Assembly (NCBI GenBank): GCA_012841625.1
Contig: DUUI01000004.1
Coordinates: forward strand, 1-64,000
Direction of reading: 5' to 3'
Source: Erysipelothrix sp.
GTDB lineage: Bacteria; Bacillota_I; Bacilli_A; Erysipelotrichales; Erysipelotrichaceae
Length of the DNA stretch: 64,000 nucleotides
Shown here: positions 13,817 to 26,626 of the stretch, one piece after another
Numbering within the stretch: the first letter of the stretch is position 1
How the letters are laid out: every line of letters starts with the position of its first letter
The notes under the pieces: generated by a model
Databases searched by the model: none
What the model was told of the DNA's origin: nothing
Seen by the model: the letters and a program-made list of their open reading frames with translations, nothing else
Made by a program: the position numbers and the translations under genes

Positions 13817-15468
13817 GTAAAATTTTATCTTTAAGTAAAGTCATGTTTAAGATTTCATTGGACTCCTTTAGAGTATCTAAAAAGAAATCTTTAAACATAC
13901 TATTTGTTGTATTTATGGTTCTCTTCTTATTAGTACCGGTATTTATGTTGTTCAGGTTCTTATTTAAGAACACTTTGGAAATGCTGATTACTATGAATCA
14001 AGAAGCTCTACTTATCAATGTCCTTTTAGCAGGACTAAGTTTGGTTATTATTTTCTTTTCAATGCTACAAATTCCTTATATTTACTACTTTTCCAATGAT
14101 ACCGAAACTTATTTAGCATTACCTTTAAAACCATATGAGATTCTGTTAAGTCGACTTTTTGTTGTTCTAATTTTTGAATACTTACTAGTCTTTGTCATGA
14201 TGGTTCCCTTTATTTTTACATTCTTTGAGATAACAGGAAGTATTGGCAGCATTATTATTGGTCTTATTGCTAGTATATTTATCCCTATAGGCCCGGTTAT
14301 TATCTCTAGTATTGTGGTCATCTTATTGATGAATTTTGTTCCATTCTTTAAAAACAAAAACGCGATTAACGTAATTTTTGGTCTTCTTGCTTTTGCTTTC
14401 TCAATTGGTATTAATGTAGTTGCACAGGGCCAAGATTTCTCTCAAATTGATTTATTACAATTACTTCAAGATGGTAACAACTCAATAAGTAATACAATGT
14501 TTGCTTTGTTACCAAACATTCGCTTTGCTTCATCAGCAATTGTTAATCAGTCTGTGCTTGATTTACTAATCTTTATAGGAATTACACTTGGGTTGGTGGT
14601 AATCTATTTATTTGCTGCACAGAAATTTTATTTAAATGGTGCGACAACAATCAGTGATTCAGCTCGTAATAAAAAGAGATTTAATCGCAATCAATTATCG
14701 ACTGGTAGACAATCATCTCTTGTGAGTACTTTTTTAACTCGTGAAATTAAAACACTCCTTAGAACTCCAGCCTATCTCTTAAATGGTCTTTTACCTATCT
14801 TTATATTTCCAATAATGATTGGTATATTACCAATATTCGGTAACTTTGAAAGCGATCTTGATATGACGTCATTTATGCCACTGTTAAATCAGTATTTAAA
14901 TGATATTCAGCTTGGGGTTCCTATTGCATTAATTGCTGGTGTTGTTATTGGTTTGTTTATTGGATCAATGAATATGTTATCTGTGACAGCTTTATCTAGA
15001 GAAGCAAAGGTTATAGATCATATAAAAGCTTACCCAATTGATCATTACAAGATGATGTTAGGTAAGCTGATATTTAATATTGGGTTATCATTATTAGGCG
15101 TAGTTCTAACTATAGTTGTGATTAATGTATGGATTACACTACCTTTACTATTTAACTTGCTGGTACTTGTTAGTTCTATTATTGCTGTTACTTTTACAAA
15201 TCTGTTTGGAATGCTGGTTGATTTGTTTAGACCAAATCTTAAATGGACTAATGAAATTCAAGTTATTAAACAAGGATTAAATGGATTTATAAATATCTTT
15301 GGGCTATGGATACTCATTGGTATCCTTGGTTTTATTGCTTGGCAATTAAGGGACTATTTCTTTTATACAACCATTGGTTTGACTGTCTTTATTTTGATTG
15401 CATCACTGGTCATCTTGTATTTCTTAAAAGTGAATACTTCAGATTTAGTCATTAAGGCTGAAGCTTAA
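13813..15468 (+). CDS. ABC-2 type exporter permease
   Basis: 551 aa with roughly 12 hydrophobic segments in two blocks: about residues 28-50, 70-95, 110-135, 145-170, 185-200 and 250-270, then a polar loop at about 275-310, and a second block to the C-terminus. Large ABC-2-like permease with no diagnostic motif. Coupled to the ATPase gene before it. The 3' end overlaps the convergent metK by 24 bases and no terminator is visible between them. Substrate unknown. Confidence 0.85.
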   Translation: MSKILSLSKVMFKISLDSFRVSKKKSLNILFVVFMVLFLLVPVFMLFRFLFKNTLEMLITMNQEALLINVLLAGLSLVIIFFSMLQIPYIYYFSNDTETYLALPLKPYEILLSRLFVVLIFEYLLVFVMMVPFIFTFFEITGSIGSIIIGLIASIFIPIGPVIISSIVVILLMNFVPFFKNKNAINVIFGLLAFAFSIGINVVAQGQDFSQIDLLQLLQDGNNSISNTMFALLPNIRFASSAIVNQSVLDLLIFIGITLGLVVIYLFAAQKFYLNGATTISDSARNKKRFNRNQLSTGRQSSLVSTFLTREIKTLLRTPAYLLNGLLPIFIFPIMIGILPIFGNFESDLDMTSFMPLLNQYLNDIQLGVPIALIAGVVIGLFIGSMNMLSVTALSREAKVIDHIKAYPIDHYKMMLGKLIFNIGLSLLGVVLTIVVINVWITLPLLFNLLVLVSSIIAVTFTNLFGMLVDLFRPNLKWTNEIQVIKQGLNGFINIFGLWILIGILGFIAWQLRDYFFYTTIGLTVFILIASLVILYFLKVNTSDLVIKAEA

Positions 15469-16545
15469 CTCTTTAGTTTTTTCCCAAGGATAATGATCAT
15501 ATCCAAAATGTCCAAAATTACTTGTATCTTGATAAATTGGATTTAATAAATCTAATTCATTAATAATATTATAAACACTGAAATCAAAATTCTGATTAAC
15601 TATGTCTAATAATTGTTCATTAGTATATTTAGAGGTTTGATAAGCTTGAACATAAATTGATTGTGGTGTTTGTTTACCAATTGCATAAGAGAGTTGAATT
15701 TCAACTCTTTTTGCTAGTTTGGCAGCGACTAAGGATTTAGCTACATAACGAGTATAATAAGCAGCTGAACGGTCAACTTTTGATGGATCCTTACTTGAGA
15801 AACATCCCCCTCCAATACGTCCCATACCACCATAAGAGTCAACGATAATCTTACGTCCTGTTGTGCCGCTGTCACCATATGGTCCACCTATCACAAATTG
15901 ACCGCTTGGATTAATGGTATAGGTTGTGTTTTCATTTATGAGTCTTGGGTCAACGACTTTTTCAATTACTTCTTTGATCATCGTGTCTTCGATTTGTTGA
16001 TGTGAAATACCTGCTTCATGTTGTATTGAAATAACAATATTTGTGATATATAAAGGATGATTGTTTGCATCGTATTGTACACTGACCTGTGTTTTTCCAT
16101 CAGGTTTAACCCATGAAATAGTTTCTCTTAATTCTTTTAAACGTTTTGAAAGTTTATGTGCAATTGTAATAGGTAGAGGCATTAACTCAGGTGTATCATC
16201 ACAGGCATAACCAAACATAATTCCTTGATCACCAGCTGAGATAACATCTCTGGCAACTGCTTGAAATATATCTGATGATTGCTGAGAAACTTTTACTAAA
16301 AACTCAAAATCCTCAACATAACCAATTGATTTTAGTACCTCTGATGCAATTGCTTCATAATCGATTTGAGCTTTCGTATTTGCTTCTCCATAAATTAAAC
16401 AAAAATTATCTTTAATGGTTGCTTCAACAGCCATTTTTGAATACTTATCCTGTCTTAGCGCTTCATCTAAGATGGCATCACTTATTTGGTCACAAACTTT
16501 ATCTGGATGACCGTCGGTTACAGATTCTGATGTAAATACAAACAT
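15445..16545 (-). CDS. metK: S-adenosylmethionine synthetase
   Basis: Makes SAM from methionine and ATP. The signature parts are present: ESVTDGHPDKVCDQISDAI, SAGDQGIMFGYA, SGQFVIGGPYGDSGTTGRK, SSKDPSKVDRSAAY and FGHFGYDHYPWEKT. At 366 aa it is about 30 residues shorter than typical, through small internal deletions rather than a truncated end. The usual RHGGGAFSGKD loop reads RIGGGCFSSKD, so it is a divergent branch. An S-box riboswitch precedes it. Confidence 0.95.
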   Translation of the reverse strand: MFVFTSESVTDGHPDKVCDQISDAILDEALRQDKYSKMAVEATIKDNFCLIYGEANTKAQIDYEAIASEVLKSIGYVEDFEFLVKVSQQSSDIFQAVARDVISAGDQGIMFGYACDDTPELMPLPITIAHKLSKRLKELRETISWVKPDGKTQVSVQYDANNHPLYITNIVISIQHEAGISHQQIEDTMIKEVIEKVVDPRLINENTTYTINPSGQFVIGGPYGDSGTTGRKIIVDSYGGMGRIGGGCFSSKDPSKVDRSAAYYTRYVAKSLVAAKLAKRVEIQLSYAIGKQTPQSIYVQAYQTSKYTNEQLLDIVNQNFDFSVYNIINELDLLNPIYQDTSNFGHFGYDHYPWEKTKELSFSLND

Positions 16546-16733: not shown

Positions 16734-17471
16734 TTACTCTTCTTCACTAATAAGTTCTTCATATTCTTCAAGGTTTAAACCATCGTGTTGATCCATGAAT
16801 TCTTGCTCAGCAAGTTCACGATACTTATCCATTTTTCTTCTGAATAGTTCACCATTTGATGGCGGTGTATAAGAAATGGCATTGGCTCCTGCCTGAATCA
16901 CTTCTAAAATTGTTTCCTCAGTAGGTCCCCCTGTTGCGATAATTGGCACTTCAGGAAATTGTTCTCTAATTCTTCGAACAATATGGGCTGTGTTTTGTGC
17001 TCCAGATACGTTAATTATATCTGTTCCAGCATCTAATCGCTCTTGAATATCTGTATACTCACTAACAACAGTCGAGATTATTGGGCAATCGACAGCACGA
17101 TTAACAAGGTCTATGGTGCTTGCTGGTGCAGGACCATTTAATACAACAGCAGTAGCGCCCTCAGCTTCAGCATGAGCTGCAATTTGTGCTGAGCGATAGC
17201 CTTTTGTGGTTCCTCCTCCAACACCCGCAAAGACAGGGTTTGAGGCAACCTGGATAATGCTCTTTAATATTGCTGGATGTGGTGAGAATGGATACACAGC
17301 TAGGATTGCATCGGCATTATTGTTTATGATAATGGCAATGTCTGTTGTAAATATGATAGATTTTATTCTTCTGCCATGAATTATGATTCCTGAACATTCA
17401 CGAATAATCTTTGGAACATAAACGATGTCATTTCTTAAGGCAGTGTTAATTTTAGGTCTAATTTTACTCAT
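16734..17471 (-). CDS. TIM-barrel protein of unknown function, conserved in Bacillota
   Basis: 245 aa. Beta/alpha barrel pattern with Gly-rich phosphate-binding-like ends: VFAGVGGGTTKG, IINVSGAQNTAHIV and IIATGGPTEETILEVIQAGA followed by ISYTPPSNGELF. The same protein is known only as a 'hydrolase' or hypothetical in other Firmicutes as far as I can recall; no substrate can be assigned. The C-terminal 35 residues are acidic. Its ATG overlaps the yitT stop (TAATG), so the two are coupled. A run-off into the metK leader region follows. Confidence 0.75.
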   Translation of the reverse strand: MSKIRPKINTALRNDIVYVPKIIRECSGIIIHGRRIKSIIFTTDIAIIINNNADAILAVYPFSPHPAILKSIIQVASNPVFAGVGGGTTKGYRSAQIAAHAEAEGATAVVLNGPAPASTIDLVNRAVDCPIISTVVSEYTDIQERLDAGTDIINVSGAQNTAHIVRRIREQFPEVPIIATGGPTEETILEVIQAGANAISYTPPSNGELFRRKMDKYRELAEQEFMDQHDGLNLEEYEELISEEE

Positions 17472-18334
17472 TATGTTATCTTATGTCGGACAAAGTTTCC
17501 GACTACCCTTTCACTTTTTGTTACATTGATAAAGGCTTGCTCATCTATAGATAAAATTATACGACAAACTTCTTCAACTTCAAAGGCATTAACGACCATA
17601 AATAACATTGTTTTAGGTGTTTTGGTATATGCACCTTCACCCCATAGTTTTGTAATTCCTCGACTAAACTTAGAAAATATGGCTTCTGCGACATCATCTT
17701 CATATTCAGTGATAATGTATAAACCGTTGAGTTTGTGGCGTGAGTCCATATTATTGATAATGGTTGTTGAAACAAATTGGAAAATCATTGAATACATGGC
17801 TGCTTCAAAGCCAAAAATAAATCCAGCAACTAGTAACACAGCCCAATTCAAGTACATAATGTAATCCCAGATTGGGACATGTGGATGATGATTTTGGGTA
17901 TAGATGGCGATGTAATCAGTTCCGCCGCCACTGGCTTTTGCTTTTAAGGCTAAGATACTAGAGATGCCTGTAATCATTCCACCAAAAAGAACTAACAAAA
18001 TTCGGTCATCAACTATATGAAAGTTTGGGATAAAGAAATCGGACAGTGAAACAATTGTAAATTGAATCGTTGTTAATATCGCAAATCGTTTGCCAATATA
18101 CTTCATAACCAATATCGTTAAAACTATCTGAATTACCAGATATAAGAGTAAGTATTGAATGTGGATATTAAAATATTTTGCTAATATCTCAGTCACAAGC
18201 TTTGCGATACCGACAAAACCAGCCGGATAAAGATTGGCTGGATTAACAAATCCATGTATCGAAATACTTGCTGTTAACGCAGAAAATACAACTAATAGTA
18301 GTGATTTTAAAAATTCTTTTGTTTCTGTACTCAT
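17471..18334 (-). CDS. YitT family membrane protein (DUF161 and DUF2179)
   Basis: 287 aa. Five or so membrane segments in residues 10-185 (the DUF161 part, including HGFVNPANLYPAGFVGIAKL) followed by a cytoplasmic DUF2179 domain (ITKLWGEGAYTKTPKTMLFM). Transported molecule unknown for the family. Translationally coupled to the TIM-barrel gene, which hints at a shared role. Preceded on the same strand by ridA and its terminator. Confidence 0.88.
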   Translation of the reverse strand: MSTETKEFLKSLLLVVFSALTASISIHGFVNPANLYPAGFVGIAKLVTEILAKYFNIHIQYLLLYLVIQIVLTILVMKYIGKRFAILTTIQFTIVSLSDFFIPNFHIVDDRILLVLFGGMITGISSILALKAKASGGGTDYIAIYTQNHHPHVPIWDYIMYLNWAVLLVAGFIFGFEAAMYSMIFQFVSTTIINNMDSRHKLNGLYIITEYEDDVAEAIFSKFSRGITKLWGEGAYTKTPKTMLFMVVNAFEVEEVCRIILSIDEQAFINVTKSERVVGNFVRHKIT

Positions 18335-18394: not shown

Positions 18395-18871
18395 TTATAA
18401 GCAGTGGTCACAAGTCCCATCAGGACAGTCTTCACAGTCATGCTCAGGTACTTCTTCCCATTGTTTTTTAGCGAATTGAGCTTCATAAGCTAAAGTATCT
18501 AGCGCGACACAATCAATCGCTATTTTTGCACCATAAGCTAAATCTTTAATCTCAACAACGGTTCGTGCTGGATATGGATTTGAGAAGTATGTGGCATAGA
18601 TTTGATCAAACTTTTCTAAATATTTATGGTCAGATAAATAAACTGTTGTTTTGACAATATGTCTTAATTCTAAATCTATTTCTGATAAAAGTGCTACTAA
18701 ATTTCGAATAACTTGCATTGATTGTTCTGATACATCATCAGAAACCATTGTGTTATCTTCATTTAATGGTAATTGTCCTGATATAAAAACAAAGTCTCCA
18801 ACCTTTAATGCTGGGCTATATGGGCCATGTCCCTGTGGAGCTTCAATGGATGTAATTGATTTTGCTAACAT
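18395..18871 (-). CDS. ridA: RidA/YjgF family protein with a C-terminal four-cysteine tail
   Basis: RidA enzymes hydrolyse reactive enamine/imine intermediates such as 2-aminoacrylate. Residues 1-125 cover the family core (GPYSPALKVGDFVFISGQLP at the start; PARTVVEIKDLAYGAKIAID with the Arg that binds the substrate carboxylate). Unusually a 30-residue tail follows with Cys146, 149, 154 and 157 in a CxxC-x4-CxxC pattern, which could bind Zn or an iron-sulfur cluster or act as a thiol switch. AAGGAG lies before ATG 18871 and a TATAAT further upstream. Confidence 0.93.
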   Translation of the reverse strand: MLAKSITSIEAPQGHGPYSPALKVGDFVFISGQLPLNEDNTMVSDDVSEQSMQVIRNLVALLSEIDLELRHIVKTTVYLSDHKYLEKFDQIYATYFSNPYPARTVVEIKDLAYGAKIAIDCVALDTLAYEAQFAKKQWEEVPEHDCEDCPDGTCDHCL

Positions 18872-18941: not shown

Positions 18942-20132
18942 TTATTTATGCTTACGCAACCAATCACTTCCCTTTTGGATTTCTACTAGTGATAATTCTT
19001 GGTAATCTAATTGCCTTAAAACCTCATATGTTACAATCGCCACACTATTGGCTAAGTTTAGTGATCGCGCATTTGATGTCATAGGTATTCTAACACAATC
19101 TTTTAAATTATTTGCTAATACATCTAGTGGTAAACCTGTACTTTCTTTTCCAAAAACTAAATATATATTTTCTTTCTCAGCTGAATAATTAATTTCAGAA
19201 TGGCTTTGTTCACCATATCGTGTGACAAAAATCACTCTACCATTGACCGTTTTCTTAAATGCAGCATAATCATCATGAATGATAATATCTAATTCATCTA
19301 TATAATCCATTCCAGAGCGTTTAAGACGCTTATCATCATAGATGAAGCCAAAGGGCTCAATTAAATGGAGTGTCGCATTAGAGGCCATGGCTGTGCGCAT
19401 AACATTGCCTGTATTTTGAGGAATCTCTGGTTCAAATAACACAATGTGAAGTTTTGGGTGATTTGCTTTACGTTGATATAAGGCAATAAATGCTAAGATA
19501 ATAAGACCGATTAAAACACTAAAGATAATTCTAAAGACGAGTTGATTAAAGAATTCTAATGGAACCATCTGAATTAAACGATCAGTAGCTGGGTCTAATA
19601 GCCATAAATCATTGCTAAAGAAGACATGATGGAAATTAGTCCAAAAGCCGTCAAAATCAAAAACAACATACATTCCTAATGCAGCAAGCAATAAACCAAA
19701 CACTACAAATGAAGTTTTAAACGATTGATTAAAGATAAATTTAGCCTTTTTAAGTCCTAGTGAAAGATATCTGATAGTTAAAAAGATAGCAACAATAAGT
19801 GATACATAAAGTATTGCTTGACTGCCTAAATATAGATTCTTAACATCGACCATATGATCAATCTCTTTTTGATTAAACATTTGGTCGCCACTTTCTAATT
19901 CAAAATGTAAATCATTTCGACTATCTTGAATATAATCTAATAAAACAGCCGTTGCTGTATTGAGTTCTGATTCAGATAGATTCATTCGCTGAGCTGTTGA
20001 TAGTCTTTCATTCATATCATTATAAAAAGTTCGATTAAAACTGTGACTAAAAATTGACCCTATTATTAAAACAATAATCATGCTTGAGGCCCATATCCAA
20101 TTGAATTTTCTACTCTGCAAGATATTCGACAT
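18942..20132 (-). CDS. Fusion protein: Lit-like (DUF1461) membrane domain plus TrmL tRNA 2'-O-methyltransferase
   Basis: 396 aa in one unbroken frame. Residues 1-225 have four membrane segments and the DUF1461/TIGR01906 hallmarks EIDHMVDVKNLY (His93) and FHHVFFSNDLWLLDPATD (His168/169). That family includes the lipoprotein intramolecular transacylase Lit, whose essential residues are histidines in these two places. Residues 227-396 are a complete SPOUT enzyme of the TrmL type (FEPEIPQNTGN, VFGKESTGLP, IPMTSNARSLNLANSVAI), which 2'-O-methylates the wobble base of tRNA-Leu. At the junction the usual TrmL start Met is a CTT Leu codon, so no separate TrmL start is visible. GGAGG precedes ATG 20132, within the end of rdgB. 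Confidence 0.88.
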   Translation of the reverse strand: MSNILQSRKFNWIWASSMIIVLIIGSIFSHSFNRTFYNDMNERLSTAQRMNLSESELNTATAVLLDYIQDSRNDLHFELESGDQMFNQKEIDHMVDVKNLYLGSQAILYVSLIVAIFLTIRYLSLGLKKAKFIFNQSFKTSFVVFGLLLAALGMYVVFDFDGFWTNFHHVFFSNDLWLLDPATDRLIQMVPLEFFNQLVFRIIFSVLIGLIILAFIALYQRKANHPKLHIVLFEPEIPQNTGNVMRTAMASNATLHLIEPFGFIYDDKRLKRSGMDYIDELDIIIHDDYAAFKKTVNGRVIFVTRYGEQSHSEINYSAEKENIYLVFGKESTGLPLDVLANNLKDCVRIPMTSNARSLNLANSVAIVTYEVLRQLDYQELSLVEIQKGSDWLRKHK

Positions 20133-20694
20133 ATTTTAGAACCTCCATCAAAGCTTTCGATCGGTGTGATACTTTTGCTTTATATTCTAAATCTTCAGCA
20201 AATGTCTTTGTTGTATGCTCTGGAATAAAAATCGGATCATAGCCAAATGAACCCGTACCTCTTATTTCTTGTGAAACACTGCCATAAACGACTTGTTGTG
20301 TCACAAACTGCTGACTTGGTGTTAATAAAACCATGGCACATGTAAACATTGCTTTTCTGTCAATGACCCCTTCTAATAACTTTAGAATTTCTTTATTCTT
20401 TAGTGCATCAACTGTACCAGATCCTAAAAATCGAGCTGAATTAACACCAGGTTCATTGCCTAAGGCTTTAACACTGAAGCCTGAATCATCTGCCAAAATA
20501 GCATGATTAGGATAAAATGATTGGATTGTTTTGGCTTTAATTAATGCATTGTCTAGAAAGGTTATGCCTGTTTCTTCGATTTCAAAATCAAAATCGATAT
20601 CCCGAAGACTTATAATCTCGATATCTAAATGCTTGAAGTATTCTTTGATTTCTTTGATTTTATGCCCATTATGGCTTGCTACTAGTATTCTCAT
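20110..20694 (-). CDS. rdgB: RdgB/HAM1 family dITP/XTP pyrophosphatase
   Basis: Removes non-canonical purine NTPs from the pool. About 194 aa from ATG 20694 (MRILVASHNGHKIKEI), the usual family start; the longer frame from 20721 would begin inside the promoter. Motifs: ILADDSGFSVKALGNEPGVNSARF and GSFGYDPIFIPEHTTKTFAE. The 3' end overlaps the Lit-TrmL gene by 23 bases. There is no ribosome binding site; a TATGAT hexamer ends 10 bases upstream, so the message may be nearly leaderless. Confidence 0.93.
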   Translation of the reverse strand: MRILVASHNGHKIKEIKEYFKHLDIEIISLRDIDFDFEIEETGITFLDNALIKAKTIQSFYPNHAILADDSGFSVKALGNEPGVNSARFLGSGTVDALKNKEILKLLEGVIDRKAMFTCAMVLLTPSQQFVTQQVVYGSVSQEIRGTGSFGYDPIFIPEHTTKTFAEDLEYKAKVSHRSKALMEVLKYVEYLAE

Positions 20695-20744
20695 AACAGT
20701 AGTTATCATACCAAAAAACATGCCATTATGCTATGATATTTGCA
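20694..20744. promoter_or_regulatory. Back-to-back promoters for rdgB and the choline-kinase-like gene, probably leaderless
   Basis: Plus strand: extended -10 TGC-TATGAT (hexamer 20732-20737) with 6 bases to ATG 20744. Minus strand: TGG-TATGAT (20710..20705) with 10 bases to ATG 20694. Neither gene has a ribosome binding site. At normal -10 to start distances, transcription would begin at or just before the ATG. Confidence 0.6.
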
Positions 20745-24702: not shown

Positions 24703-26626
24703 TTAGATCTCAAAAGCAGCAGCAAGTCCAGCCTCAGTAGCTAGATTCGCAGTACCAGGAACTTTTGCATCACCAACAACAATGACTTTACTGCAAAGTC
24801 TTTTAATTCTTCCTCAAGTGGATTGTATGCCTTAACACCAGTAGCTAATGCAATCGTATCAAATCCACCAATAGTAACCTCTTCACCATTCTTAGTATAA
24901 ACTACGCCATCTTCAGTAAACTCTTTTACTTTAGCACTTGTCATTGATTGAACACCTCGATCAGCAAGTTTTGACATTAAGAAAGCTCTTGGAGTTATTT
25001 CTTCATCTAAGGCAATGGCTTCACGCATTTCAAGGATAGTTACTTGTCTATTATGTTCACCAAGGAAGTCTGCCGTCTCAGCTCCTGTTTATCCGCCACC
25101 AATAACGAGAACATTTCCACCAGGTGTAACATTTCCATCAAGAATATCTAAAGCATCAACAACCATGTCATTGTCAACACCATTAATTGGAAGTTTCGAA
25201 GGAACCCCACCAGTCGCAAGAATGACTGTATCTGGTGCAAACTGTTCAACATATTCTTTAGTTACTTCAGTGTCTGTAACATATTTAACACCATTTTTCT
25301 GACCAACTGAAACATAATATTTCAAAGCAGTAGCGATTTCATGTTTTGTCGGAGGAATCGAAGCAAGTCTAAACTGACCACCAAATTGTGCATCTTTTTC
25401 AACAACTGTTACATCATGTCCTTTTTGGCCAGCAACAAGTGCAGCCTCAAGACCAGCTGGACCACTACCAACAACTAATACCTTCTTAGGATCCTCTACT
25501 TTGTCCATTGGGTATTTTAATTCATTACCAGTCAATGGATTAATTAAACAAGATGTGCTCTTTCCAACAAAAATATAACCGATACAAGATTGGGTACATC
25601 CAATACAAGGGATAATTTCAGACAAACGATTTTCTTTTACTTTATTAGGAAGATCTGGATCAGCAATTGATGAACGACCAAAGGCGATGAAATCAGCACA
25701 ATTATTTGATAATGCATTTTCACCACTATGTGGATCATAGCGACCAACAGAAATTACCGGGATATCCACAGTATCCTTGATAAACTTTGTTTGAAATTGG
25801 TTAAAGCCAGCAGGCATTGCTGGTGTTGGACTCATATATTGCATACTCGCATATGTCATCATAGACACATGTAAAGCATCAGCAGTATATTCTTCAGCCA
25901 TTTTAGCAACTGATAATGATTCCTCTAAAGTTCTTCCACCATGTACTTTTTCATCATAACTGAATCTAAATGTCATAGTAAAGTCATCTCCAACTTTACT
26001 GCGAATATCTTTAAATATTTCTTGTGGGAATTTCATTCTTCCATTGAAGTCTCCACCAAATTCATCAAAACGCTTATTTGAATGAGTTGACATAAACTGC
26101 GCAATCATATAACCATGAGCACCATGAACCTCAACCCCATCAGCACCTGCTTCTTTAGCGCGTCTTGCGGCATCACCAAATTGACCAATAATTTCCCAAA
26201 CTCTTTCATTACTCATTTGTTCTGGAATAGAACCCATGATTGGACAAGCAATTTTACTAGGCGCTTCAGGAGTTAATCCAAAAATTGCACCGGTACAGTT
26301 TGGCGTCCAGCATGATGAAGCTGAATAAATACTTTTGACCCTTCATTATGAATAGCATAAATTAATTCTTTATATTTTGGAATCTGATCATCATCCCATA
26401 AACCTGTTTGATTCGTAATAGCACGACCTTTTTTGTCAATAGCACAAACTTCAATAATAATTAAACCAAAACCACCCGCCGCTCTTCTGCGATAGTATTC
26501 AACCATCCCATCGGTCACATATCCTTCACTAGATCCTAAATTAGTCCCCATTGGAGGCATAACAAACCTGTTACTTAATTCTGTACTACCAATTTTACCC
26601 GGTTCAAACAACTTCTCAAATTTCAT
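24703..26626 (-). pseudogene. Decayed NADH:flavin oxidoreductase / 2,4-dienoyl-CoA reductase-like gene
   Basis: Three frames together encode one FadH-like protein: an Old Yellow Enzyme barrel (EVHGAHGYMIAQFMSTHSNK), an iron-sulfur motif (CIGCTQSCIGYIF, then a distal Cys) and an FAD/NAD domain (LVVGSGPAGLEAALVAGQKG). Three lesions break it. A frameshift near 26290-26297 follows HHAGRQT, and the sequence resumes as GAIFGLTPEAPSKIACPIM. An in-frame TAA stands at 25091..25089 between VLVIGGG and TGAETADF. A frameshift near 24795-24800 precedes VIVVGDAKVPGTANLATEAG, which runs to a TAA at 24705..24703. The first ORF still has an ATG and AAGGAG ribosome binding site. An intact, shorter OYE gene lies at 47898. 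Confidence 0.88.

Follow-up and report, generated by a model that had tools for sequence, protein, structure and literature searches.

Does the reading frame at the locus studied here, in a stretch of 64,000 nucleotides (hereafter the window), encode a natural fusion of the membrane lipoprotein enzyme Lit with the tRNA methyltransferase TrmL, and does the joining of the two carry any functional meaning?

The fused frame and its two halves

The locus was found to contain a single open frame of 396 amino acids on the minus strand, with an ATG start, a TAA stop and no stop inside (Table 1). The Pfam domain Lit (PF07314) was matched over nearly its full length (E 6e-38, 131 bits against a gathering cut-off of 24), followed by the presence of a full-length SpoU_methylase domain (PF00588, E 2e-30), and among the NCBIfam models TIGR01906 matched the first half and TrmL (TIGR00185) was the best on the second half. 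The 396-codon frame joining Lit (DUF1461) to a complete SPOUT methyltransferase, as claimed in the earlier note, was therefore present with both domains complete. Judged from its sequence, the locus is a natural Lit-TrmL fusion in a genus related to Erysipelothrix, common to both known species of that genus. No second Lit or TrmL gene was found elsewhere in a search of the window's genome (a draft of 1.37 Mb in 85 contigs, 97% complete), so that any Lit and TrmL activities still kept have to come from the fused protein. A protein of 245 amino acids, with no Pfam family over the cut-off and a weak PEP_mutase match, was found between yitT and metK (16734-17471).

Table 1. Positions of the fused frame, its parts and its neighbours in the window
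Feature	Position	Strand	Remarks
Fused Lit-TrmL ORF	18942..20132	-	396 aa, TAA stop counted in
Lit domain (PF07314 / TIGR01906)	19548..20093	-	aa 14-195
Predicted TM1	20049..20105	-	aa 10-28, Kyte-Doolittle
His93 codon	19854..19856	-	counterpart of BcLit His85; alignment to 7b0o
Predicted TM2	19758..19814	-	aa 107-125, Kyte-Doolittle
Predicted TM3	19653..19709	-	aa 142-160, Kyte-Doolittle
His168 codon	19629..19631	-	counterpart of BcLit His153; alignment to 7b0o
Predicted TM4	19485..19541	-	aa 198-216, Kyte-Doolittle
Linker	19452..19484	-	aa 217-227, ALYQRKANHPK, basic; ~11 residues; without ATG/GTG/TTG and without SD-like motif
CTT (Leu228)	19449..19451	-	aligns with TrmL start Met of unfused relatives
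TrmL-like SPOUT domain	18945..19451	-	aa 228-396; PF00588 at aa 228-369
RdgB/Ham1 (XTP/dITP diphosphatase)	20110..20721	-	upstream, same gene string; 23-nt overlap with fused ORF
RidA/L-PSP family gene	18395..18871	-	downstream, conserved order
YitT/DUF2179 membrane protein	17471..18334	-	downstream, conserved order
MetK (AdoMet synthetase)	15445..16545	-	downstream, conserved order

In the Lit half, the residues H93, H168 and F172 were each found to be invariant (51/51 family Lits), and the conserved stretches aligned with those of the Bacillus cereus Lit (7b0o), in which the catalytic dyad consists of His85 and His153, along with Phe157, the match of F172 (PMC8275575). Both functional histidine regions pointed out earlier were thus in place. 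Hydropathy and charge (positive-inside) predicted four transmembrane segments, acidic outer loops containing both histidines and basic inner loops, a topology by which the N and C termini of the Lit domain, and thus the TrmL domain, are predicted to be cytoplasmic. The Lit half scored 94.2 bits against TIGR01906, above the cut-off of 74.8, and 65 bits against the strict equivalog NF051877, far below the curated cut-off of 400, so the fused protein is not filed under that equivalog; the Lits of the unfused relatives gave no match to NF051877 at E 1e-15. The protein therefore resembles known Lit (B. cereus 7b0o; PF07314, TIGR01906) in the four predicted membrane segments, the acidic outer loops, the histidine pair and most of the conserved positions, and differs from it in the C-terminal TrmL domain and, together with its unfused relatives, in the NF051877 score. 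The window's genome was found to encode Lgt and LspA, the enzymes that produce the substrate of Lit. The reaction that the Lit half most likely still carries out, at the outer face, is the transfer of the sn-2 acyl chain of diacylglyceryl-lipoproteins onto their N-terminal cysteine.

The TrmL domain alone scored 177.7 bits against TIGR00185 (cut-off 190.6), the unfused family members scored 180.6-190.4 and the Escherichia coli TrmL 250.9; TrmL was by far the best family for the SPOUT half, followed by RlmB as the runner-up (41.5). The TrmL function of the whole clade, fused and unfused, is assigned by homology. In an alignment with the TrmL of E. coli MG1655, the counterparts of N14, R20, K42, R43, R46, E102, R129, S130 and Y142 were all found to be kept, and R20, K42, R43, R46, R129 and Y142, which correspond to R246, K268, R269, R272, R356 and Y369 here, are known to matter in the E. 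coli enzyme, for which the roles of residues binding SAM and tRNA have been described (PMC3763551). The E. coli TrmL requires the modification made by MiaA for tRNA recognition (PMC5372735), and a MiaA gene was found in the window's genome. From the conserved residues we infer that the TrmL half pairs with a second copy and 2'-O-methylates nucleotide 34 of the tRNA-Leu isoacceptors. Tethering of TrmL to the membrane is expected, because the predicted topology puts this domain in the cytoplasm, hanging from TM4, and the short linker together with a TrmL dimer, as in E. coli, would hold TrmL close to the membrane and bring two Lit domains together.

Known TrmL enzymes are minimalist and consist of the SPOUT domain without extension (PMC3763551, PMC5372735). 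The present protein shares with TrmL/YibK (TIGR00185; tRNA Um34/Cm34 2'-O-methyltransferase) the whole SPOUT domain, the conserved motifs and the basic residues that bind tRNA, and is unlike it in carrying a membrane enzyme on the N-terminal side, an extension that need not affect catalysis; it is a natural exception to the picture of TrmL as nothing more than a SPOUT domain. TrmL proteins engineered with an N-terminal fusion partner, as they are summarised in PMC5372735, still knot, fold, dimerise and bind the cofactor, and since they fold and dimerise they leave room for the Lit-TrmL architecture. One such fusion, the ThiS-TrmL of Mallam et al. (cited in PMC5372735), is described there as carrying a domain at the TrmL N terminus with the dimer and cofactor binding kept, and unlike the present protein is artificial and soluble. 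No description of a Lit-TrmL fusion was found in the open-access literature searched, which agrees, for open-access papers, with the earlier statement that none had been described; the parts are known and the combination appears to be new.

Distribution and origin of the fusion

The other species of the genus (G001, the only other genome of the genus in the set compared) was found to contain the same fused frame with 52% identity (L162, 3797-5005), and the frame lay among the same neighbouring genes as in the window, in the order rdgB, lit-trmL, ridA, yitT and metK. Among the best-scoring matches listed, an unbroken Lit-TrmL frame was present in 2 of 272 family genomes, both in this genus, and in three further family genomes lit and trmL shared a frame that was interrupted between the two by one TAA. 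Samples from the class (395 genomes) and the phylum (392 genomes), which are overlapping sets, gave no more Lit-TrmL fusions among the matches listed; in counts of this kind a fused protein would come first in the list, but a very diverged one might escape. The fusion is known from two genomes, both of them drafts. Long frames at TrmL in G060, G220, G430, G466 and G538 were read and were found not to be Lit-TrmL fusions.

In the rest of the family, Lit and TrmL were found as separate genes, often adjacent, and the commonest adjacent arrangement was the TGA of Lit overlapping the ATG of TrmL as ATGA. The comparison with relatives that had been proposed earlier thus gave separate and often overlapping lit and trmL genes there and the fused frame in this genus. 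A tree of Lit and TrmL together placed the fused pair in one clade (SH-aLRT 98), grouped with the unfused genus g9 (89). In g9, which is the closest genus without the fusion, lit and trmL lie in different frames and the trmL start falls some 20 nt within lit; this overlap would be the expected state before fusion, one indel away from it.

The account that we hold to be probable is that a small indel in the overlap of lit and trmL produced a fused, near-neutral protein with independent halves. The ancestor would have contained the gene string rdgB, lit, trmL, ridA, yitT and metK, with lit and trmL overlapping and presumably translationally coupled. The ancestor of this one genus would have acquired a small indel where lit and trmL overlap, which brought both into the same frame; the exact base of this presumed indel is beyond naming at such divergence. 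Erosion of the former trmL start, of the Shine-Dalgarno sequence and of the lit stop would then have followed in the window's species, giving one polypeptide with both domains. The halves would probably act independently, with the membrane location of TrmL as a by-product of fixation and not a regulated link. Overlapping ORFs were found in 22 of the 49 adjacent same-strand pairs in the window, so raw material for fusion is plentiful, and the locus offers a clear case in which two overlapping operon genes may become one bifunctional membrane protein.

Whether the pairing was selected

The fusion might instead have been selected for its function, by holding TrmL at the membrane for tRNA near membrane-bound ribosomes or by coupling UUA/UUG decoding to envelope or lipoprotein biogenesis, a reading to which we give little credence. 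In favour of it, the fused frame has survived in both species although they have diverged by about 50%, lit and trmL adjoin across much of the family, and a second lipoprotein enzyme, Lgt, also bears a C-terminal soluble enzyme (PpaX-like) in most of the family. Against it, among the best-scoring matches listed the fused frame was confined to the two genomes out of 272, TrmL and Lit are each joined to unrelated partners elsewhere, and the TrmL of E. coli needs no partner proteins to methylate tRNA (PMC3763551).

Three other joinings were found in the family. RdgB/Ham1 was fused straight to TrmL in a frame of 364 amino acids with no Lit between (L157, 1957-3051, in G150 only), and in G026 RdgB and TrmL shared a frame that was interrupted between the two by one TAG. 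Frames of about 460-490 amino acids joining Lit to TraX (PF05857), followed by the presence of a separate trmL, were found in the genus g25 (L004, L034, L114, L124 and L138), and L005 and L037 contained lit, traX and trmL as three separate genes. The F-plasmid TraX acetylates pilin, and acetylation of lipoprotein ends by a TraX domain carried on Lit is a speculative idea. Lgt and a PpaX-like HAD phosphatase were found in one frame of 499 amino acids in the window's own genome (L164, 799-2298, contig C56), with an HprK-like gene, recognised by eye, upstream of it. The Lgt-PpaX frame was present in most of the family genomes checked, the window's genome included, and across most genera; no paper on Lgt with PpaX was found. 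Like Lit-TrmL, it has a soluble enzyme attached to the C terminus of an unrelated lipoprotein enzyme of the membrane; unlike Lit-TrmL, it is older and widespread in the family and has other partners.

Taken together, the RdgB-TrmL, Lit-TraX and Lgt-PpaX fusions favour near-neutral fusion of coupled operon neighbours, with tethering as a by-product, over a special and selected partnership of lipoproteins with tRNA. What would point to a coupling of lipoprotein remodelling to wobble modification is the fusion itself. A natural multi-domain TrmL of this kind, a wobble methyltransferase anchored by its membrane domain at a location that was selected and that ties the modification of tRNA-Leu to the biogenesis of lipoproteins or of the envelope, seems unlikely to us; if the tether were functional, tRNA decoding would be linked to the cell envelope.

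The junction

In the alignment, the codon opposite the usual TrmL start Met was CTT, as claimed in the earlier note. No ATG, GTG or TTG was found in the window between TM4 and the first beta strand of TrmL, and no SD-like tetramer was found near the window junction; GGAG, GAGG or AGGA was present just upstream of the start in 100 of 140 other trmL genes. The loss of the usual TrmL start was thereby upheld. Because the ancestral TrmL start, its ribosome-binding site and the Lit stop were all absent from the window, it is very likely that nothing besides the fused protein is made from the locus.

The junction of the sister species, CCAAAAAAAATG, was found to keep an ATG three codons before the aligned position, beside a run of eight A and without an SD motif. 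Removal of a single A would let Lit terminate three codons further on, and transcript slippage at this run, which lies at the fusion point, could yield separate proteins. The fusion of the sister species is thus softer than that of the window, and some separate TrmL could be made there. It is unlikely, and a shade more so than selection of the pairing, that a separate TrmL is still made in general, by internal initiation, by proteolysis of the linker or by slippage at the A8 run in the sister species, and that the fusion is formal only: the retained ATG of the sister species and a GTG at codon 231 in the window would allow this, but an SD-like motif was absent near both junctions and a start at GTG231 would cut the beta strand. 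The stages of the process can be seen together, from the unfused g9 through the softer fusion of the sister species to the locked fusion of the window.

An artificial joining of two separate genes by an indel from sequencing or assembly of the window, a junction error feared in the earlier note in case relatives contained a stop and a start there, is highly improbable and was rejected, since, although the genome is a draft in 85 contigs and a nearby reductase gene (24741-26626) is broken, the separately assembled sister species is fused too with the same synteny, a one-base shift in the window would bring back no Lit stop close by and no TrmL start, and the other large genes of the window are intact. 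The broken gene, 2-enoate/dienoyl-CoA-reductase-like by eye, was found split over three ORFs; it contains a TAA in frame at 25089-25091 and more breaks near 26250 and near its end, and is either a decaying pseudogene or a place of local errors.
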